Source: Pseudoselenomonas ruminantium
GTDB lineage: Bacteria; Bacillota; Negativicutes; Selenomonadales; Selenomonadaceae
DNA: 64,000 bases
Direction: 5' to 3'
Assembly: GCF_900104055.1 (NCBI RefSeq)
Contig: NZ_FNJQ01000001.1
Span: 1 to 64,000 of the forward strand
Shown: piece after piece, positions 23,344 to 34,494 of the stretch
Position numbering within the stretch: position 1 is the stretch's first letter
Layout of the letters: every line of letters starts with the position of its first letter
The notes under the pieces: model-generated
The model's database searches: none
Seen by the model: only the letters and a program-made list of their open reading frames with translations
Told to the model about the DNA's origin: nothing
Translations under genes and position numbers: made by a program

Positions 23344-24438
23344 TTGCGAAAAACGATCAATCTTCCCCATACAGAACTGATTCCTGATCTGCTGGCTATC
23401 CTGCCTGACTGGTACCGTGGACAGGCAGACGCCCGGGAACTTCCCTGGCGCAGCGCCCCTACGCCCTATCATACCTGGCTGTCGGAAATCATGCTGCAGC
23501 AGACACGAGCCAGTGCCGTGATTCCCTATTATGAACGCTTCCTGTCCGCTTTGCCCGACATCGAAGCACTAGCAGCCTGTGATGATGACCGGCTCATGAA
23601 ACTTTGGCAGGGCCTTGGCTATTATTCCCGGGCCCGCAATCTCAAGAAAGCCGCCATTGTCATCTGTCAGGAATACGGAGGGAAGCTGCCACAGGATTTC
23701 ACAGCTCTGCTAAAACTTCCCGGCATCGGCCGCTATACTGCCAGCGCCATCGGCTCCATTGTCTTTGGCCAGCCCTGCCCCGCCGTTGACGGCAACGTAC
23801 TGCGGGTTCTATCCCGGGTACTTGCCTCAACCGCCGACATCGCTGCCCCTGCCACGAAAAAAGCCATGGAAGATACGCTTGCTCCTCATTATCCCAGTGG
23901 CAGCACTGCTGGTGAGCTCAATCAGGCCTTCATGGACCTGGGTGCCACCATCTGCCTGCCGCATGGCATGCCTCATTGCGCTTGCTGTCCTCTCGCCAGG
24001 ATTTGTCTGGCGCATGCCGAGGGCCTGGAACTGGAGCTTCCTCAAAAGAGCTCCGCCCGCCAACGCCGGCAGGAAAAACATACCATCCTACTGCTCCGGC
24101 AGGGAGATACCATTGCACTGCATCAGCGCCCCGCCAAAGGGTTGCTGGCAGGTCTCTGGGAATTTCCCAACCTGCCGGGCAAACTCCGGAAAGACGAAGT
24201 CATCCGCTGGCTGGCAGAACATGATTTAGAGGCAGAAAAATTGCAGATACTCCCCCCCGCCAAACATACCTTTTCTCATATCGAATGGCAGCTTTCCGGC
24301 TGGCTGGTAGAAGTTGCTCCCGCTACGGGGCTGACCGTCAGGGATAACAATCTGCCTTTTGTCTGGGCAAATTCGCAGGAAATTGCAGAACACTACAGCC
24401 TGCCTTCGGCTTTTCAATATTATTTTCCTTTTTCATAA
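23344..24438 (+). CDS. mutY: A/G-specific adenine DNA glycosylase
   Basis: Removes adenine mispaired with 8-oxoguanine. The start is a TTG, supported by AAAGGA seven bases upstream. E48 in SEIMLQQT and D149 in VDGNV are the catalytic residues; the helix-hairpin-helix is LPGIGRYTA (125-133). The iron-sulphur cysteines are C204, C212, C215 and C221, spaced 7-2-5, one residue longer in the first gap than the common 6-2-5. The C-terminal half (about 235-364) is the MutT-like domain that recognises 8-oxoguanine. The gene is full length and alone on its transcript or followed by the chemoreceptor gene after 107 bases. Confidence 0.93.
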   Translation: MRKTINLPHTELIPDLLAILPDWYRGQADARELPWRSAPTPYHTWLSEIMLQQTRASAVIPYYERFLSALPDIEALAACDDDRLMKLWQGLGYYSRARNLKKAAIVICQEYGGKLPQDFTALLKLPGIGRYTASAIGSIVFGQPCPAVDGNVLRVLSRVLASTADIAAPATKKAMEDTLAPHYPSGSTAGELNQAFMDLGATICLPHGMPHCACCPLARICLAHAEGLELELPQKSSARQRRQEKHTILLLRQGDTIALHQRPAKGLLAGLWEFPNLPGKLRKDEVIRWLAEHDLEAEKLQILPPAKHTFSHIEWQLSGWLVEVAPATGLTVRDNNLPFVWANSQEIAEHYSLPSAFQYYFPFS

Positions 24439-24545
24439 TAAATAAGCCCTAAGCAGCAGGAATTTTATTTGCAAGCACGAATAAAAGAAGCAAAGAGTTT
24501 ATATGGATGTGGGATACTGATAGAACTTTTGAGAGGTGTTTGCAT

Positions 24546-26588
24546 ATGTTCAAATTTTTCGATGCGCCCCAACGAGCCGAAGCCGCTGCGCCGGCACCAG
24601 TCCCTACGGCAGCCACAGAACTGACCGATATAAAAACTGCTTATCTATCCAAGAGCGAGCTGACCGCCCTGCGATTGAAAGATCTGGCAGATGTAGCACA
24701 AGGCGCCGCCATGATCGTCGGTTTCGTTTCCCCTGATCTGGATGTACCGGAAGTTGCCCGGCTGATTAAAGCTGAGATTCCCTCCAGTACCAAATTGCTG
24801 CTGATGACCACATCGGGTGAGCTCTGCCGTCCGCAGGGCAGCCATACACTATATTGCGAAGCACCAGAGCATCGAGGCAAAGTCCTTTTGCAAGCCTTCT
24901 CCAATCGCATGATTGAGAACACCTACACCATGCATATCCCCCTGCCGGATGCAGACCTGCGCAGCGGCAATGTGGATATGACGGTCAATGACCGCGTAAA
25001 GGCCATCCAGAGGGAAATCGAGCGGCATACACCGCCTTTCCGTCTCAGCATCGGCCATTGCTTTGCCATGGTCTACATCGATGGTGTTTCCAGTTGTGAA
25101 ACCTTCGTTTCCGAAGCCATGTTTGCCTCGGGCAAGTTCCCCATCCCCTTTATTGGTGGCAGTTCTGCTGGCAACCTGGATTTCGCCCATACTTATATCT
25201 ATGACGACAACACCTGTTTGGAAAATCATGCGGTAATCATCCTTGTGCGTTTGCATAAAGAATACCGTTACGGCATTTTCAAGTCTCAGGCCGTTGAACG
25301 TACTGACAGCTCCGTAATCATCGGCTCAGCCAACAGCGCCCTGCGCTATGTGGAAACCGTCGAAGGCCCTGAAGGGGAAGTTCCCATCATCGATGCTCTC
25401 AAACATTATTTCCACGTGGAAACCACCGCTGAAGTACAGGCCAGGATGCAGGATTATACCTTTGCCACCGATGTCAACGGCGAAGACTTCATCCGCACTT
25501 TGTCGGGCTTTGATGAGGCTAATAACCGTATCAACTTCTTCTGCGATGTGGTTACCGGCGAGCGGCTTTACCTGATGAAGCGTATTTCCCTGGATCAATC
25601 TTTGTCCCGTGACCTGCGCAAATACAATCAGAATAAGCCTCAGCCTATAGGCGGCATCTTAAACGACTGTATCCTGCGCCGCTTAGGCTATCCGGATGAA
25701 ATCAAGCATATCGATGAATTCAAGGATATTCCTGTTGCCGGTTTCTCTAGCTTCGGTGAAATCGCCGGCCTGCATGTCAACGAAACCCTGACTGCCATCT
25801 TCTTCTACCATGTACCGACAGGTACCATTTTCTCCGATGAATACATCGATAATTTTGCCAAAATCTATGCCAACTGCAATGCGTTCTTCTACAACCGCAT
25901 CATCGATCGGCAGAAACACACGGACAAGCTCAAGGATAACCTTATCAGCATGTTCCAGGATTATCAGTCCAAGATGCCGGATATCGTCAAGACCATTATG
26001 CGGATGTCTCAGGACGTAGATCAGATCCAGGCTGCCATCCAACAGCTTTCCGGCGGCATCGACGAACAGAACGGCCTGTTCAACCAGCTTACGGACAGAA
26101 ATCGGGAAATCACCCCGAAACTGGATATGCTCTCCCAAAGCACCCAGAAAATCGACGATGTCATGAAGATGATTAACGAGATTGCCGCCCAGACCAACCT
26201 GCTGGCCCTCAATGCGGCTATCGAGGCCGCCCGGGCTGGAGAAGCAGGACGTGGCTTCTCCGTTGTCGCTCAGGAAGTACGCAAGCTGGCAGAAAACACC
26301 CAGACCAATCTGCACGTCTCTGACGAAGCCATCAGTTCCCTGCTCCATGACGTAAACGAAATCGACAAGATTCTCGTGGACAACAAGGACTTTGAACAGC
26401 AAATCAATGAATTTGACGAAAACTTCTCTAAGCAGATGAAGGCGCTGCATAAAAGCCTCAACGAAGGCATCGCGCATATCCAGAAATCCACCCAGTCCAT
26501 CAAGGCACTCGAAGCAATCAATAACCGTACGAGTTTGGAAATGGAAAAACTCACCACGATTATCCACAATATTGAAATGGGCATTTAA
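24546..26588 (+). CDS. Soluble methyl-accepting chemotaxis protein with FIST sensor domain
   Basis: Cytoplasmic chemoreceptor-like signal transducer of 680 residues. Residues of about 45-430 are FIST_N plus FIST_C, a sensor domain thought to bind small ligands such as amino acids; FIGGSSAGN is the glycine-serine motif. Residues 470-680 are a methyl-accepting signalling domain with the hairpin-tip region [20 protein letters not shown]. No transmembrane segment is present. The ATG at 24546 is supported by AGAGGTG seven bases upstream. It would report to CheA/CheW and flagella, none of which are in this window. Terminator and convergent lysR follow. Confidence 0.88.
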
Positions 26589-26599
26589 ACCATAAAAAG

Positions 26600-26634
26600 A
26601 CAGCCTGACCAGTAATTGATCAGGCTGTTTTCTT
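26600..26634. terminator. Bidirectional terminator between the chemoreceptor gene and lysR
   Basis: ACAGCCTGA and TCAGGCTGT pair around an 11-base loop; TTTTCTT follows on the plus strand and CTTTTTAT on the minus strand. Confidence 0.88.
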
Positions 26635-26648
26635 ATGCGCATTTCTCT

Positions 26649-27539
26649 TTACGAGGTAAAATTCTTTTCGGCATAATCCTTGATAAACTCAATAAATTGC
26701 GTATCTACTGCAGACAGGCCCTTATAGGTTCCCCAATTGAGTGCAATCTGCACCTTGAGCGCCGGTTTCAACGACCGGCGTACAAAAATCTTTTCCGAAC
26801 GGGTAACAAAATCCGGCAAAATGGATATCCCCATGCTGTTAGCCACCAATTGCTTAATCGTTTTGATCTGCGTCGTACACAGGGTTATCTTCGGAACAAA
26901 ACCTGCCTTATGGCATTGTTCATAGACAGCCTTATACTGATAAGTATTGGGATGCTGCATGATGAATTTCTCATTTTTCAGCTGAGAAAAAAGTATTTCC
27001 TTCTCGGCTGCCAGCTTGTGCTGAGGCGGAATACAGATACTCATGGAATCCCGCATGATGATCAGTTCATTTTCTCTGGCATTTCCAGGCTCTCCCAGGA
27101 CAATCCCAAAATCCAGTTCACCGAGCTCAATGCGTTTGCGCACCTCTTCAGAATCATTGAACTCCTGCACATCCAGATCGACGTCGGTGAATATCTGCTT
27201 GAACTTGGTGAACAGATCCGGAAATAAATAAGCCTCCACCATGGGGGGAATCCCGAAATGAATGGTTTCGCGCTTATCCTGGCGATAGCGCTCCATATCC
27301 TTCAGCGCCACGGCTGCAGCCTTCATGATATGTTTGGCATGAAACAGGAAGGCCTGTCCTTCTTCCGTCAAATGTACCTGCTTCTGCCGCCGGTCAATAA
27401 GCAGCAGCCCCAACTCTGCTTCCAAGGCCTTTATCGCTTTCGTAACAGAAGGCTGCGAAACATGCAGTGCCTCTGCCGTGCGGGTAAAATTCTTCAACTC
27501 GCTGATTGCACAAAAATACTCTAACTGCCGAAATTCCAT
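26649..27539 (-). CDS. LysR-family transcriptional regulator
   Basis: DNA-binding regulator of 296 residues. The N-terminal winged helix-turn-helix is at about 1-60 (FTRTAEALHVSQPSVTKAIKALE), followed by a linker helix and an effector-binding domain (about 90-290) of periplasmic-binding-protein type. The ATG at 27539 matches the MEFRQLEYF start of the family; the frame is open 14 codons upstream. The target is unknown: neighbours are convergent (chemoreceptor) or unrelated (radA). Confidence 0.9.
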   Translation of the reverse strand: MEFRQLEYFCAISELKNFTRTAEALHVSQPSVTKAIKALEAELGLLLIDRRQKQVHLTEEGQAFLFHAKHIMKAAAVALKDMERYRQDKRETIHFGIPPMVEAYLFPDLFTKFKQIFTDVDLDVQEFNDSEEVRKRIELGELDFGIVLGEPGNARENELIIMRDSMSICIPPQHKLAAEKEILFSQLKNEKFIMQHPNTYQYKAVYEQCHKAGFVPKITLCTTQIKTIKQLVANSMGISILPDFVTRSEKIFVRRSLKPALKVQIALNWGTYKGLSAVDTQFIEFIKDYAEKNFTS

Positions 27540-27635
27540 AAACCGTGCCCCCATACGTAAAATTTCAGTTCTATATCCCATCTGCTTGTCTATTCTCTAT
27601 GCAGAAGCAACGTTATAATCCATTATACTACATTT

Positions 27636-29024
27636 TTAATTTCTGGGCATGGCTAATTTCAACGCATCACCGATGGTTTCCGCACCATAAAGTTTGATTC
27701 CGTTTACCTCACCGGTCAGCTGGCGATAATTCTTCATGGGCAGCACCACATGTTCAAACCCTAAACGCTTGGCCTCGTTGATGCGTACATCTGCCTGACC
27801 TACGGCCCGGACTTCGCCGGACAGCCCCACTTCGCCGAAGACAATGGTCTTGGGCCGGATCTGCCGGTTGGCAAAGCTCGAAGCCATGGCTACGCAGATG
27901 CCTAAGTCGGCGGCAGGTTCATCAATCTTGATGCCGCCTGCGACCTTGACATAGACATCACAGGCACCGACCTGCAGATGCACGCGTTTTTCAAGCACCG
28001 CCAACAATAACTGAATCCGCTTGATATCCACAGAATCAGCCGTGCGCCTTGGCGGCACGTAGGGAGTAGGTGCAACCAGGGCCTGCAGTTCCACGAGCAG
28101 GGGCCGTGTGCCTTCCACTGTAGGAATGATGACCGTACCGCTATCCCCCTCCCTGTCGGACAGGAATAATTTGGACGCATCCGGCACATCCACGAGCCCC
28201 ACATCACGCATCTCAAAGAGCCCTAGCTCATTGGTGCTGCCGAAGCGGTTCTTGACCGCCCGCAGCACCCGGTATTCGGCATTGCGCTCTCCTTCGAAAT
28301 AAAGCACGGTATCCACGATATGTTCCAACACACGGGGACCGGCTAAGTTGCCCTCTTTGGTCACATGACCAATCACAAACGCCGCAATGCCCCGGCCCTT
28401 GGCAATACGCAGGATGTCCACAGCACACTCGCGTACCTGGGATACGCTGCCCGGCGCACTCTGCACTTCCGGCTTGAACACAGTCTGGATGGAGTCGATA
28501 ACCAGCAGATCCGGCTTGGTATTTTCAATATGTGCTTCGATGGTCTCCATATTGGTCTCGCTGACCACATAGAGCTTATCCGCAATGGCCTTGAGCCGGT
28601 CACCGCGCATCCGCACCTGCCGGGTGCTTTCCTCGCCTGTCACATAGAGCACACTGCGGCCAGCACGGGCCACATCCGCACAGACGCGCAAGGTCAGGCT
28701 GGACTTACCCACACCGGGATCGCCCACAATTAGCACCATGGAACCAGGAATCACGCCGCCGCCCAGCACCCGGTCCAGCTCTCCTGAACCCGTACCAAAA
28801 CGCGGTAAATCTTCAATGGCTACTTCGCCTATCGGCTGTGGCTTCTGAGCATCCGAAAGCCCCAGCCGCAGACCGCCGCTGCTGGAACTGCCCCCCGTTT
28901 CCGGTGCCACTACCTCTTCCACCATGGTATTCCAAGCCCCACATCCCGGACATTTCCCGAGCCACTTGGGCACTTCATAGCCGCAATCCTGACAGACAAA
29001 GACTGTCTTTTTCTTTTTGGCCAA
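27636..29024 (-). CDS. radA: DNA repair protein RadA
   Basis: RecA-like ATPase that promotes branch migration in recombinational repair. The 462-residue protein has the N-terminal zinc finger (CQDCGYEVPKWLGKCPGCG), Walker A GDPGVGKSS, the RadA-specific KNRFGS motif and the Lon-protease-like C-terminal domain. The start is TTG at 29024, with AAGGGATGG upstream. It follows the clpC operon after a terminator, the common Firmicute arrangement clpC-radA. Confidence 0.95.
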   Translation of the reverse strand: MAKKKKTVFVCQDCGYEVPKWLGKCPGCGAWNTMVEEVVAPETGGSSSSGGLRLGLSDAQKPQPIGEVAIEDLPRFGTGSGELDRVLGGGVIPGSMVLIVGDPGVGKSSLTLRVCADVARAGRSVLYVTGEESTRQVRMRGDRLKAIADKLYVVSETNMETIEAHIENTKPDLLVIDSIQTVFKPEVQSAPGSVSQVRECAVDILRIAKGRGIAAFVIGHVTKEGNLAGPRVLEHIVDTVLYFEGERNAEYRVLRAVKNRFGSTNELGLFEMRDVGLVDVPDASKLFLSDREGDSGTVIIPTVEGTRPLLVELQALVAPTPYVPPRRTADSVDIKRIQLLLAVLEKRVHLQVGACDVYVKVAGGIKIDEPAADLGICVAMASSFANRQIRPKTIVFGEVGLSGEVRAVGQADVRINEAKRLGFEHVVLPMKNYRQLTGEVNGIKLYGAETIGDALKLAMPRN

Positions 29025-29056
29025 TAATATCCATCCCTTCGGTTCAAAAACTTCAA

Positions 29057-29082
29057 AGAAGAGCAGGTAATCCTGCTCTTCT
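29057..29082 (-). terminator. Terminator of the ctsR-clpC operon
   Basis: AGAAGAGCAGG and its complement pair perfectly around TAAT. A short T-rich run follows on the minus strand. It lies two bases past the stop of the 41-codon gene, which therefore belongs to the ctsR-clpC operon. Confidence 0.75.
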
Positions 29083-29084
29083 CG

Positions 29085-29210
29085 TTATATCTTCTTTTTT
29101 ACGATCCGTATAATACTCCGCCCCAGCCAGACGATGGCCCAGAAAAAATTCACGACGAAGTTCCAAAGCCGCCCGCTAGTATCCTGCGGAGTGAGTTTAT
29201 TGCGGGACAT
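29085..29210 (-). CDS. 41-residue hydrophobic basic peptide overlapping the clpC end
   Basis: A small gene below usual annotation cut-offs. Its ATG lies inside the last codons of clpC in another frame, with AAGGAG seven bases upstream, so it looks translationally coupled. The peptide has a polar N terminus (residues 1-14), one Trp/Phe-rich helix (LWNFVVNFFWAIVWLG, 15-30) and a basic tail ending KKKI. A single membrane-spanning or amphipathic helix is likely. The terminator starts right after the stop codon. No family is recognised; a role in membrane attachment or modulation of the McsB/ClpC machinery is only suggested by position. Confidence 0.6.
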   Translation of the reverse strand: MSRNKLTPQDTSGRLWNFVVNFFWAIVWLGRSIIRIVKKKI

Positions 29211-31695
29211 GTTCCAGCTCCTTGCGCTTTACAGACCGCTTGGCTTTTTTCGTGAATTCCAATTCATTGCCACTCTTGCGCACAACGATGGTATCGCCGG
29301 CCTTGAACTTGCCTGCCAGCAGCATTTCGGCAATCTCGTCCTCGACCAGCTTCTGGATAGCCCGTTTCAACGGACGGGCACCGAATTTGAAATCCGTGCC
29401 TTCGTCCACCAGCTTGCCCCGGGCAGAGGGACTGATATCCAGCTGGATATCCTTTTCCTGCAGGCGGCTGCGCACATCCTGCAACAGGATATCCACGATT
29501 TTTGCCAGATCTGTGCGTCCCAACGGATGGAACACCAGCTGTTCGTCCACGCGGTTCAGGAATTCCGGCTTGAAAATATGCTTTACAGCTTCCAGCACGC
29601 GCTTTTCTGCTGCCTTTTCCTCAGCTTCTTTTTCGTCCACATTGCCCACGGCAAAGCCCATGGAGCTCTTGGCTTTCTTCAGAAGGTTCGAGCCAGCATT
29701 GGAAGTCATGATGATCACGCTGTTGCGAAAATCCACGGTGCGGCCCTGGCCATCGGTCAGACGGCCATCATCGAGCACCTGCAGCAGCAGGTTGAACACA
29801 TCCGGATGGGCTTTCTCGATTTCATCCAAGAGGATAATCGAATAAGGCTTGCGGCGCACCGCATCTGTAAGCTGCCCGCCCTCCTGATAGCCTACATAGC
29901 CCGGAGGCGCCCCGACCATCCGGGAAACCGTGTGCTTCTCCATATATTCGCTCATGTCGAAGCGGATAATTGCCTCTTCCGAGCCAAAGAGGGCATCGGC
30001 CAACGTACGCGCCAGCTCGGTCTTGCCCACACCGGTAGGCCCTAAGAACAGGAACGAACCGATGGGACGCTTGGGATCCTTGAGCCCCGAACGCGCGCGG
30101 CGGATAGCCTTGGCCACGGCCTTGACAGCCTCTGACTGACCGATTACCCGCTTGCCCAGAATCTTTTCGAGCTTCAACAGCCGTGCCGATTCCGTAGCAG
30201 CCAACTGGCTCACTGGAATGCCCGTCCATTGGGAGGTCACGGCCGCAATATCCTCAGCTGTCACCGTGATATGGCTCTGGCCCTTTTTCGACCAATCCTT
30301 GCGGTTTTCATCCAATTCTTCCTTGATTTTCAAGGCCTTATCCCGGATGCGGGCCGCCTTTTCATAATCCTGGGCAGTAATCGCCGCTTCCTTCTCCACC
30401 AGCAGCTGCTGAAGCTGATCGCGCAGTTCCTGCAATCTGGCAGTAGGCACAACCTGACTCATACGCACCTTGGATGCCGCTTCGTCCATCAAATCGATGG
30501 CCTTATCCGGCAGGAACCGGTCCGTGATATAACGGTGTGACAGGCGCACCGCAGCCTTGATGGCCTCATCTTCAATGGTCGCATGATGGAATTCCTCATA
30601 TTTGCTGCGCAGGCCATAGAGAATCTTCTCTGCATCCCCCAGATCCGGTTCCTCCACCATGATGGGCTGGAAGCGGCGGGACAGGGCCGCATCTTTTTCG
30701 AGATACTTCTTGTACTCATCCAGCGTGGTCGCACCGATAATCTGGATTTCGCCACGGGACAGGGCCGGTTTCAGGATATTAGCTGCATCCAACGCGCCTT
30801 CACCTGCGCCAGCTCCCACTAAGGTATGCATTTCATCGATAAAGAGAATGATATTGCCCGCCTGCTGGATTTCTTCAATCACGCCCTTCAGGCGTTCCTC
30901 AAATTCCCCGCGGTATTTGGCCCCAGCTACCAGCGAAGCCATAGACAGGGAAACCACTTTCTTATCCTGCAGCATATAGGGCACCGTGCCGTCCACGATG
31001 CGCTGGGCCATTCCTTCGGCAATGGCCGTCTTGCCCACGCCCGGCTCACCTAAGAGCACGGGATTGTTTTTCGTGCGGCGGGACAGGATCTGAATCACCC
31101 GCTGGATTTCCGTTTTCCGGCCAATCACCGGGTCCATCTGCTCTTCACGGGCCATCTTATTGAGGTCACGCCCGTATTTTTTGAGCAACGGTGTACCTTC
31201 CCGTTGATGACGGCCATGCTTGTGTTCCGGCAGCGGGCCGTCGCCTTCGGGGTGCTGGCCGTCGATGCGGTCCATGACTTCCTCCTGCAAAGCATCGGGA
31301 TCGATGCCCATGAGCTCCAGGACTTCTACAGCCGCGCCTTCGGTTTCTTCCAACAGACTCAGCAGGATATGTTCCGTGCCGATATAATTATGCCCCAGAT
31401 TCTGGGCCTCTTCATACGCCCCCTCCATCACCCGCTTGGCACGGGGAGTATAGTAGGGATTGTCCCCGGGATACTCCGCCTCCCGGGAGGCTATGCGCTG
31501 CACCTGGGCAGCCACCTTTTCAAAGCTCATACCCAAAGCGCCCATGGCCCGAGCCGCCAGGCCTTCTCGTTCATGGAGAAGGCCCAGCAGGATATGTTCC
31601 GTGCCAATATAGTCCTGGGCCAGGTCCCTTGCCGCATATTGGGCAAATTCAATGGCTTTGATGGCCATATTGGTAAAATGATTGCGATAATCCAT
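29197..31695 (-). CDS. clpC: ATP-dependent Clp protease ATP-binding subunit ClpC
   Basis: AAA+ unfoldase that feeds arginine-phosphorylated and misfolded proteins to ClpP. The 832 residues comprise two N-terminal Clp repeats (about 1-145), the first AAA module with GEPGVGKTA, the UVR-like middle domain ([20 protein letters not shown]), and the second AAA module with [11 protein letters not shown]. The ATG at 31695 is preferred because GGAGGA is six bases upstream; the ATG two codons earlier would abut the binding site. It starts two bases after mcsB. Confidence 0.95.
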
Positions 31696-31697
31696 AG

Positions 31698-32777
31698 TCA
31701 TTCCTCCCGGCGTACATGATGCTGCTCCATCAGCCGCCGCATATGCTGCGCCCGCAACCGGTCAATTTCCGTCTTGGACAGGTTCTCGTTGGCCGCCAGA
31801 TTCTGCAGGAAGCTGGTACGGCTGCTCAGCAGCAGCTGTCCATAACATTCCGGTGCCAGACCGCGGATCAATTTCAAATCCATTCCCAACCGCAGGCGGG
31901 ACAGCAGTTCCAAAGCTTCCTTTTCCGATAGCAAGCGAGCGTAAGACAACGTACCAAATGCCCGCCAGACTTCATCTTCCAGCCGTTCCTTCATGTAGAG
32001 AGCCAATGCCTTGCGGGCCCGGCGTTCATGGGCCACGATCTCCGTCACAGCTCCGCGCAGGTTATCGATCAGCTCCTGCTCGGAATAGCCCAAAGTCAGC
32101 TGATTGGCAATCTGGAACAAACAGCCCGGCTGCTCCTTCTCATCGCCGAATAGTGGCCGTACAGCCAACCCCAATTGCGGTGAGATATTGATGATATTGC
32201 TGACATTGCGGGTAAAGACGAGGCCCGGCAGATGCAGCAGGACACTGGCCCGCAGGCCCGTTCCTAAATTGGTGGGGCTCGAAGTCAGATATCCCATCTT
32301 TTCATCAAAGGCAATATCCAATTTGCTCTCTAGCAGATCATCCATCGCAAAGGCCAGCTTGAGCGGCTTGGCCAGATCCAATCCCGTTGTCACACATTGG
32401 ATGCGGATATGATCTTCTTCGTTGACCATTACGCTGGCCTGCTGGCTAGCACCTAAGAACACCGTCCGGTGTTGAGGATTGCGCAGGAGATTTTCGCTGA
32501 TCAGCTGCTTCTCCCGCAGGACTTCCCGCTGCAGATGGGAAAGTTTTTCCATTTCCACACCAACAAGTTCCTCCCCAGTTACCTGAGAAAGCTCCGGCAT
32601 CACCGCAGCCAAGCGGTCTTCCACCAGCTTGAGTTCCGACAGGCTGGCCCGATTGGGGAAGGGCAGATCCCGCAGATTCCGGGAAAGCAGAATCCGGCTG
32701 GCCAGTACCACATCACCATCGGCCTCCGCGGGCTTCAGCCAGCAGAGACTACTATCCTGTAATAACTGTTCAAGCAT
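31698..32777 (-). CDS. mcsB: Protein arginine kinase McsB
   Basis: Phosphorylates arginine residues, marking proteins for ClpC-ClpP and inactivating CtsR. The phosphagen-kinase fold is shown by SSRILLSRNLRD-like residues near 27-37 and the active-site segment TSSPTNLGTGLRASV. The 359-residue length is normal. It overlaps mcsA by eight bases and clpC follows two bases after. Confidence 0.95.
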   Translation of the reverse strand: MLEQLLQDSSLCWLKPAEADGDVVLASRILLSRNLRDLPFPNRASLSELKLVEDRLAAVMPELSQVTGEELVGVEMEKLSHLQREVLREKQLISENLLRNPQHRTVFLGASQQASVMVNEEDHIRIQCVTTGLDLAKPLKLAFAMDDLLESKLDIAFDEKMGYLTSSPTNLGTGLRASVLLHLPGLVFTRNVSNIINISPQLGLAVRPLFGDEKEQPGCLFQIANQLTLGYSEQELIDNLRGAVTEIVAHERRARKALALYMKERLEDEVWRAFGTLSYARLLSEKEALELLSRLRLGMDLKLIRGLAPECYGQLLLSSRTSFLQNLAANENLSKTEIDRLRAQHMRRLMEQHHVRREE

Positions 32778-33327
32778 TCTTTCTGCCCCCTTCCTTGGCA
32801 GCCAATTCCTGTTTCATAGCCCGCACCTTGTCGCGCAGCTCCGCGGCCTTTTCATATTCTTCCTTCTCCACGCAGGCCTTCAACTCCTGCTGCAAGAGCA
32901 CAATGTTTTGTTTGAGTTCCAGGGTTCCGCCGCTGCGATGGGGAATCTTGCCTCGATGGACGCTGGAACCATGGATACGCCGAAGCATGGGTTCCAGCTG
33001 CTGGCGGAAGGTCGCATAGCAGGCAGCACAGCCAATCTTGCCCTGCTGGCTGAAATCCCGGTAACTCATACCGCAGCGGGGACATACCAACTCCCCGGCC
33101 GCATTCTTTTCCGGATTTTCTCCGGCAGGAGCACTGTTGGTGCTGTTGAAGATTCCCCGCAGGAAATCATCTACCGACACATGCCGCTTATCCTGATGCG
33201 GCACATTCACAAATTCACTATAATTAGCGGCGCAGGACTCGCAGAGGTTCTTCTCCACCCGGCCATTGGGACCAATCTGGGTGATATGCACCACGGCTTC
33301 ATGGCGCCCGCAATCATCACATAACAT
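32770..33327 (-). CDS. mcsA: McsA, activator of arginine kinase McsB
   Basis: Zinc-finger protein that activates McsB. CDDCG near the start, CESC, CPRCG and CAAC make up the paired zinc-binding motifs (residues 3-90), and the C-terminal UVR motif is EEYEKAAELRDKVRAMKQEL-like. The protein is 185 residues. It lies twelve bases after ctsR. Confidence 0.93.
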   Translation of the reverse strand: MLCDDCGRHEAVVHITQIGPNGRVEKNLCESCAANYSEFVNVPHQDKRHVSVDDFLRGIFNSTNSAPAGENPEKNAAGELVCPRCGMSYRDFSQQGKIGCAACYATFRQQLEPMLRRIHGSSVHRGKIPHRSGGTLELKQNIVLLQQELKACVEKEEYEKAAELRDKVRAMKQELAAKEGGRKNA

Positions 33328-33339
33328 ATCCGTTCCCCC

Positions 33340-33792
33340 TTACGAGAAATTTTCCAAGGTCAGCAGCATCGTCTTGAGCATCCGTACCCGTTCTTTATCC
33401 GTGATGCTCTCGGACTGGAAGATGGACACGACAAACTGCATCATCAGCGAGGCCTCACGCGCCGTCACCATCTCATGCTGCAGGAGATATTTGATCATTG
33501 ACTGCACCACCGGCAGTTCCGTATCCGGCTTGATAGCCGCCAGCATGTCCTCATAGACCATATTCTTGACCGGCACCTGCACGATGCGAATAAACCCGCC
33601 CAAGCCACGGCGCGACTCCACCACAAACCCCTTGTCCTGGGTAAAGCGGGTGGACAGCACATAACTGATCTGCGAAGGCGCACAGGAAATCTCGTCGGCG
33701 ATATCCGTGCGCCGCAATTCCACCTTGCCATCTTGCTGAGTGGCCAGCTGCCGTAAAATATAGGCTTCAATCAAATCGGCAATATTGCTCAC
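33340..33792 (-). CDS. ctsR: Class III heat-shock repressor CtsR
   Basis: Represses clp genes and is controlled by McsB/ClpC or heat. The 150-residue form has the winged helix-turn-helix (about 5-70) with CAPSQISYVLSTRF and the glycine-rich wing RRGLGGFIRI that senses temperature. The GTG at 33792 is chosen: AAGGTGAT, a long match to the anti-Shine-Dalgarno, lies four to five bases before it, and family members start at this point. Two earlier in-frame starts (33798, 33801) sit inside that site. Confidence 0.93.
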   Translation of the reverse strand: MSNIADLIEAYILRQLATQQDGKVELRRTDIADEISCAPSQISYVLSTRFTQDKGFVVESRRGLGGFIRIVQVPVKNMVYEDMLAAIKPDTELPVVQSMIKYLLQHEMVTAREASLMMQFVVSIFQSESITDKERVRMLKTMLLTLENFS

Positions 33793-33821
33793 TTTCATCA
33801 CCTTCTATAAATTCAATTACA

Positions 33822-33836
33822 ATTGACCATTTGACT
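33822..33836 (-). promoter_or_regulatory. Probable CtsR operator
   Basis: On the minus strand AGTCAAA-T-GGTCAAT gives two CtsR heptads (consensus RGTCAAA) in tandem, only one base apart where the usual spacing is three. A third heptad, AGTCAAA, lies in the promoter spacer at 33859-33865. Together they fit autoregulation of ctsR. Confidence 0.6.
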
Positions 33837-33844
33837 TTTACTCT

Positions 33845-33873
33845 ATTATATTTGTTTTTTTGACTTTTGGCAA
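33845..33873 (-). promoter_or_regulatory. ctsR-clpC operon promoter
   Basis: TTGCCA (33868-33873) and perfect TATAAT (33845-33850) are separated by 17 bases on the minus strand. One CtsR heptad lies inside the spacer and a pair lies around the expected start of transcription. Confidence 0.8.
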
Positions 33874-33874
33874 G

Positions 33875-33903
33875 AAAAAATAGAAGCGCATCTGCGCTCC
33901 TAT
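33875..33903 (-). terminator. Terminator of the pyr operon
   Basis: AGCGCA and TGCGCT pair with a two-base tip, extended by weaker pairs, and TTTTTTC follows on the minus strand. It lies between the pyrE stop and the ctsR promoter. Confidence 0.8.
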
Positions 33904-33915
33904 TCTTTCTTGCTA

Positions 33916-34494
33916 TCATTTTTTACCCGTGCTGCCTCTTTTGGTCATCGGAATTCCCTGTTTGCACAGCGGACATTCCTCAGGCTTGTAGGTTTCCACA
34001 TCCATATGCAGGAGTGCCGTGCAGGGCACGTCACCGAAGCTGGCTTTGCCGCCGCTGCGATCAACGAGCATGCTCACGGCTACGGGAATGCCACCATGAG
34101 CCTTGACCACTTCAATGACTTCCTTGATGGAGCCGCCGGTGGTCACGATATCCTCCACGATCAGGCAGCGTTCTCCTTCATGCAGAGTGAAGCCGCGACG
34201 GAAGGTCATCTTACCGTCCACACGTTCGGTGAAGATGGCTCTGGTGCCCAGAGCCTTGCCCGTTTCATGGGCCAGCAGGATGCCGCCGGTCACAGGACCG
34301 ACTACCGTTTCGATATTGGCATCCTTGAATTTCTCAGCCATGGCCTGGCAGAGTTTTTCCGTATATTTCGGCTGCTGGAGCACGTTGAATTTCTCCACAT
34401 AGTGGGGGCTGTGCAAACCGGAGGTCAAAAGGAAATGACCATCCATAATCGCGCCCGTTTCAATCAGTAATTCTTTTACTTCCTGTTCCGTCAT
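33916..34494 (-). CDS. pyrE: Orotate phosphoribosyltransferase
   Basis: Forms orotidine monophosphate from orotate and PRPP. The PRPP-binding motif CLIVEDIVTTGGS is at about 117-129, and FRRG marks the substrate loop. The 192-residue protein is the Firmicute form with a C-terminal CPLC segment. It starts one base after pyrF and closes the pyr operon. Confidence 0.95.
   Translation of the reverse strand: MTEQEVKELLIETGAIMDGHFLLTSGLHSPHYVEKFNVLQQPKYTEKLCQAMAEKFKDANIETVVGPVTGGILLAHETGKALGTRAIFTERVDGKMTFRRGFTLHEGERCLIVEDIVTTGGSIKEVIEVVKAHGGIPVAVSMLVDRSGGKASFGDVPCTALLHMDVETYKPEECPLCKQGIPMTKRGSTGKK

Follow-up and report, generated by a model that had tools for sequence, protein, structure and literature searches.

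A 41-codon gene behind clpC in Pseudoselenomonas ruminantium, here called sm, is almost certainly a genuine protein-coding gene. What stays next to it throughout is the ctsR transcription unit, and it does not depend on mcsB or clpC: 17 of the 109 genomes in which we find sm have no McsB match and none at the level of ClpC, so that it is not confined to genomes where ClpC and McsB occur. We consider it likely that the main function of sm lies outside ClpC and McsB. With sm, one of the most thoroughly studied heat-shock operons gains a conserved small protein that has no known family, and the loss of mcsB and clpC in several lineages amounts to a natural experiment whose outcome tells against the simplest idea of what sm does.

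The stretch analysed here (the window) is 64,000 nucleotides long, and on its minus strand the gene order is ctsR-mcsA-mcsB-clpC, sm, radA. The features that matter to the argument are these:

33845..33873, minus strand: sigma-70-like promoter before ctsR, TTGCCA-17-TATAAT, a consensus match only
33823..33836, minus strand: putative CtsR operator AGTCAAATGGTCAA, two half-sites 8 bases apart with a 1-nt spacer
33340..33801, minus strand: ctsR, start codon uncertain
32770..33327, minus strand: mcsA, from the ORF and the reading of the locus
31698..32777, minus strand: mcsB (arginine kinase), from the ORF and matches in relatives
29197..31701, minus strand: clpC, from matches in relatives
29218..29223, minus strand: Shine-Dalgarno-like AAGGAG within clpC, 7 bases before the sm ATG, read directly
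29085..29210, minus strand: sm, 41 codons from ATG to TAA, from profile matches in relatives and purifying selection
29056..29083, minus strand: stem-loop behind sm, terminator-like, with a broken T run
27636..29024, minus strand: radA, the downstream neighbour, from the ORF and matches in relatives

The names mcsB, mcsA and ctsR in the window are taken from a preliminary description of this DNA. The name clpC likewise comes from that description rather than from a family search, and the downstream ORF is presumably radA. Promoter-like sites are no more frequent in the region than chance predicts (3 found, 3.1 expected).

The ATG of sm occupies 29210-29208 and its TAA 29087-29085; the gene shares 14 bases with the end of clpC, the clpC stop included, and radA starts about 60 bases past the sm stop. 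The preliminary description had placed an overlooked gene at 29085-29210, with an ATG in the end of clpC, AAGGAG seven bases before it and 41 codons. All of this is borne out when the sequence is read again, and the strand, which had been left unstated, is minus. A total of 109 ORFs of at least 30 amino acids overlap positions 23500-34000, and the length of sm by itself is within chance. It is conservation in relatives, not ORF length, that raises sm above chance.

A search at E<=1 with the single protein gave matches in 129 of the 189 genomes analysed from the same family, and a profile of 49 members matched 111 of the 189 at E<=0.01. Two weak hits in group g11 (G073 and G084) were set aside, which leaves sm in 109 of 189 genomes; among good-quality genomes of the family the figure is 80 of 99. 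Named relatives that carry it include Selenomonas ruminantium HD4 and a Mitsuokella. In a sample of 300 genomes of the class, 86 match at E<=0.01, of which 80 belong to the same family and six lie outside it. Only one of these six, in G192, adjoins radA, being placed directly before radA and behind mcsA-mcsB-clpC; any extension beyond the family rests on that match, which is partial (E 2e-4) and comes from a family represented here by one genome. All ten matches at E<=0.001 in a phylum sample of 348 genomes are from the same family, and three stretches of viral contigs that fit the search pattern are not relatives of sm.

Substitutions within the family point to selection on the protein. Between the window's copy and that of Selenomonas ruminantium HD4, synonymous sites differ by 0.78 and non-synonymous sites by 0.11 over codons 6-39, which lie outside the stretch shared with clpC. 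In the sm frame pooled pN/pS is 0.27, compared with 1.06 and 1.75 when the other forward frames are read (12 non-independent pairs of 70-99% DNA identity, from 21 chosen loci), which indicates purifying selection. The overlooked gene is therefore real, and the comparison proposed in the preliminary description, of the frame across Selenomonadaceae and of synonymous with non-synonymous change, comes out in its favour. The strong hairpin behind the ORF could be taken to mean that a conserved RNA element lies here, or that the ORF is there by chance. We regard this as exceedingly improbable, because synonymous sites are close to saturation and the protein has changed little, selection is specific to the frame, Rfam gives no match for 28950-29300 at the gathering score, and the hairpin of the window occurs in only four of 88 loci, the window itself (L002), L003, L005 and L006.

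The stem of this hairpin has 12 pairs with a closing G-T if counted from one base past the stop, or 11 perfect pairs from two bases past, and the RNA fold of 29040-29095 has an energy of -20.8 kcal/mol (z = -5.1). A perfect terminator hairpin had been described here. The stem of 11 perfect pairs two bases past the stop is present, but the strength implied is not: the T run after the hairpin is interrupted (TTTGAAGTTTTT), and the hairpin is for that reason a weaker terminator than had been suggested. Likewise, that sm closes the operon holds only locally, given the rarity of the hairpin and the start of radA within 75 bases of the sm stop in 67 of 85 loci. A wider role for the hairpin as the operon's general terminator was considered and dropped, since a perfect stem of at least seven pairs with a loop of 3-8 lies within 70 bases behind sm in only eight of 88 loci, a count of perfect stems that leaves imperfect ones out.

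We read the neighbours of sm in 90 loci (L002-L091) from the 109 genomes, plus some later loci, and dropped L084, where sm has no start codon, which leaves 89. A Shine-Dalgarno-like sequence precedes sm in 73 of these, and in 78 the gene next upstream is clpC. The remaining 11 comprise ten loci of genomes without McsB and L088, where the contig ends. The overlap with clpC seen in the window turns out to be usual where clpC is present, with 8, 11 or 14 bases shared in 57 of 78 loci, though start codons were chosen by a score that favours ATG and Shine-Dalgarno-like bases, which biases both this count and that of the Shine-Dalgarno-like sequences. That sm belongs to the ctsR transcription unit is very likely.

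On the downstream side, radA follows sm in 76 of the 85 loci that have at least 1 kb of sequence there, and in 31 of the 76, several without clpC among them, it overlaps sm or starts within 4 bases of its stop. The place directly before radA, found again outside the family in G192, would fit a product that tethers RadA, a DNA-repair and transformation protein, to the membrane and is coupled to the translation of radA. We give such a partnership little credence: nine of the 85 loci have no radA in the downstream stretch of about 1.5 kb, nine more have a gap above 100 bases, and in the window the hairpin stands between the two genes. In L007, sm is followed by ORFs that resemble ftsE and ftsX by eye, not by radA.

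Genomes in which no mcsB is found bear on the function. McsB (match E<=1e-10) was found in 99 of the 189 genomes of the family and CtsR in 177. Tallied across all 189, 92 have both sm and McsB, 17 have sm without McsB, seven have McsB without sm, and 73 have neither. The 17 are G004-G010, G012-G019, G177 and G184; completeness is 90% or more in 12. In 15 their best ClpC match is at the level of ClpB, and G010 and G017 have none; ClpB level is our own reading of E values that run from about 1e-104 to 1e-116, true ClpC proteins scoring 1e-166 or less. By coordinates, sm is directly behind ctsR in all 17. Six of these loci were read gene by gene (L200-L205): five have the order ctsR-sm-radA and one is cut by a contig edge after sm, and no McsA match was found in any of the six. 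Five such copies from group g3, all without McsB, have a pN/pS of 0.33, against 0.87 and 1.64 in the other frames. Co-occurrence of sm with ctsR says little in itself, because CtsR is present in nearly every genome of the family; position is the stronger point.

These genomes bear directly on the earlier proposal that sm is a small protein of the arginine-phosphorylation and Clp stress pathway. A role as a membrane-bound adaptor or anchor of ClpC or McsB would account for the usual place of sm directly after clpC, for the overlap between the two, and for the presence of McsB in 92 of the 109 genomes with sm. However, sm stays behind ctsR in the 17 genomes that have no McsB and at best a ClpB-level match, and it is under selection in the five copies compared. 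A core role in that pathway is not supported by these genomes, and we think it unlikely that sm is a component of it.

The distribution on a tree of RadA argues in the same direction. The tree implies no fewer than three changes of the mcsB/clpC state in the family, and no fewer than seven in the presence of sm. In the g3/g5 clade the gene is in all g3 rows except G011 and absent from g5; it is also in g24 but not in the g11 rows, and it is found in g28, a group outside the tree. Across the genomes as a whole, g5 and almost every g11 genome lack it; ctsR is kept in most of these. Together with the seven changes and with the seven McsB-bearing genomes without sm, this counts against the model proposed below. 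The tree was made by a quick method from 89 rows hand-picked out of 135, excluding those below 370 residues; 30 of its 86 inner branches are weakly supported and long branches are flagged, and a test of independent pairs yields one to three pairs and has no power. One genome, G021, is labelled as having mcsB/clpC although McsB was not found in it, so that three changes are a lower bound. In G021 (L143, 79% complete), ctsR, clpC and radA are together, with no McsB and no sm found; ClpC has been kept and the arginine kinase apparently lost. The seven genomes with McsB but without sm are G116, G117, G125 and G188, where the locus is readable, G135 and G180, where a contig end cuts it, and G124. 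Loss of mcsB as such is not new, because other Firmicutes, among the lactic acid bacteria, have CtsR but neither McsA nor McsB, according to a passage of PMC6305308.

We consider control of sm by CtsR probable. The published CtsR box, given in passages of PMC12634643 and PMC3472708 as A/GGTCAAA NAN A/GGTCAAA with a 3-nt spacer, occurs in none of 31 ctsR upstream regions. With up to three mismatches it has four matches in the window, none of them at ctsR, against 4.7 expected by chance over the window. A box with a shorter spacer, DGTCAAANDGTCAR, with tandem A/GGTCAA half-sites 8 bases apart, is found in 28 of the 31 regions (absent in L205, L227 and L229) against a mean of 0.005 in mononucleotide shuffles, a count that is not independent of discovery, as the 1-nt-spacer pattern was first seen by eye in the same regions. 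It is not specific to sm, since four of the 31 regions come from genomes or loci without it (L207, L210, L211 and L214). The genome of the window contains four perfect RGTCAAANRGTCAA sites. Three stand before genes: ctsR, a gene with Clp_N, AAA and AAA-lid domains that we take to be clpB-like, and hsp20 (PF00011, E 2e-21). The fourth falls within another ORF. At the clpB-like and hsp20 genes the box and the gene are on opposite strands. When one mismatch is allowed, the same genome has 26 sites against 15 for a reversed control, which is near background.

Among the 49 protein sequences, Leu6 and Trp28 are invariant, Asn21 and Leu29 are kept in at least 90%, and an N-terminal NKLAP segment is conserved (consensus RNKLAP, short and basic). 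AlphaFold2, run with 22 aligned sequences, predicts one helix over residues 11-40 with a mean pLDDT of 80, rising to 93 for residues 21-30, and a pTM of 0.37. Along the predicted helix, Asn17, Asn21, Trp24/Ala25, Trp28, Arg31 and Arg35 fall on one side, and the conservation moment at 100 degrees per residue, taken over three alternative segments, has a permutation p of 0.0007-0.0016. Roughly opposite this conserved stripe is the hydrophobic side, with p values for the hydrophobic moment of 0.005 (residues 14-36), 0.003 (14-40), 0.05 (14-30) and 0.06 (24-38). In part of g3, Asn21 is replaced by Ser and Trp24 by Ile, and the stripe is partly relaxed there.

A Kyte-Doolittle mean of about 1.6 is the usual threshold for a membrane-spanning helix, and the best 19-residue mean in sm is 1.61. 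As this is borderline, the helix is no less likely to lie in the membrane surface than to span the membrane. The preliminary description had suggested a membrane-associated protein, and with an amphipathic predicted helix we too hold membrane association to be probable. We infer that the conserved stripe faces a partner, though it could instead reflect self-association.

Searches tie this protein to no known family. The window protein has no match in Pfam or NCBIfam at E<=10, nor does sm match PDB sequences at E<=10. Searches of Pfam, NCBIfam and PHROGs with the 49 members at E<=0.1 return only weak scattered hits, each in at most three of the 49, and those in Pfam fall in five unrelated families, neither SpoVM nor CIII among them. 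In the literature searched, which lacks most subscription journals, no small gene behind clpC appears among the matches listed, and no paper was found that brings together CtsR, heat shock and Selenomonas.

We tentatively propose, with less than even confidence, that sm encodes an amphipathic membrane-bound helix that is made with the ctsR operon and acts on a membrane stress target. In this model, the product would begin with a short basic segment and continue, over about residues 11-40, as an amphipathic helix whose end is basic. This helix would sit at or within the cytoplasmic membrane, with the hydrophobic side buried in lipid and the conserved stripe towards a partner. CtsR control, and the overlap with the preceding gene, which may couple the translation of the two, would let it be made along with the rest of the operon, and it would modulate or dock a membrane-bound stress machine. 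A peptide that acts on lipid or by self-association, free-standing and with no partner protein, might also serve membrane stress; sm is short, forms a predicted basic amphipathic helix with Trp and Asn, and is found in the ctsR unit whatever the other genes. However, the invariant Leu6 and Trp28 and the NKLAP segment suggest a specific contact, and we hold this alternative to be doubtful.

For the membrane target of the proposed helix, FtsH may serve as a first candidate, a guess that we would expect to be wrong more often than right. It is put forward by analogy with SpoVM of Bacillus and CIII of phage lambda, and because ftsH is regulated by CtsR in Lactobacillus plantarum, as stated in a passage of PMC3472708. 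SpoVM and CIII are small amphipathic peptides that inhibit FtsH, and membrane association is reported for them in a passage of PMC1838920. The likeness to sm lies in the short amphipathic helix, with membrane association probable for sm. In contrast, sm has no match to the Pfam models of either, and it belongs to another operon in other organisms.

A broader and distinctly less likely idea is that sm encodes a membrane micro-protein that would connect stress of the envelope or heat stress with CtsR or with a membrane protease, and is the sole accessory gene kept beside ctsR after the loss of McsA, McsB and ClpC. Such a component of the CtsR circuit is not described in the literature searched. 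The adaptor McsA shares with sm the operon and the likely control, but it is a separate gene, and it has no match in the six McsB-less loci read gene by gene, where sm stays. The ctsR operon of B. subtilis has the same gene order as that upstream of sm, and no small gene is named after clpC in the passage of PMC12634643 that gives this order. The CtsR box in that passage has a 3-nt spacer, against 1 nt in the window. The unusual spacing of the CtsR-like box offers a second testable point, besides the lineages without mcsB and clpC, which offer strains that could show the function of sm apart from both.

One further genome, G162 (L084 and L199), has an mcsB split into three pieces, of which two contain a stop; its clpC also contains a stop, and its sm has no start codon, a state that reflects either decay of the operon or errors of metagenome assembly.
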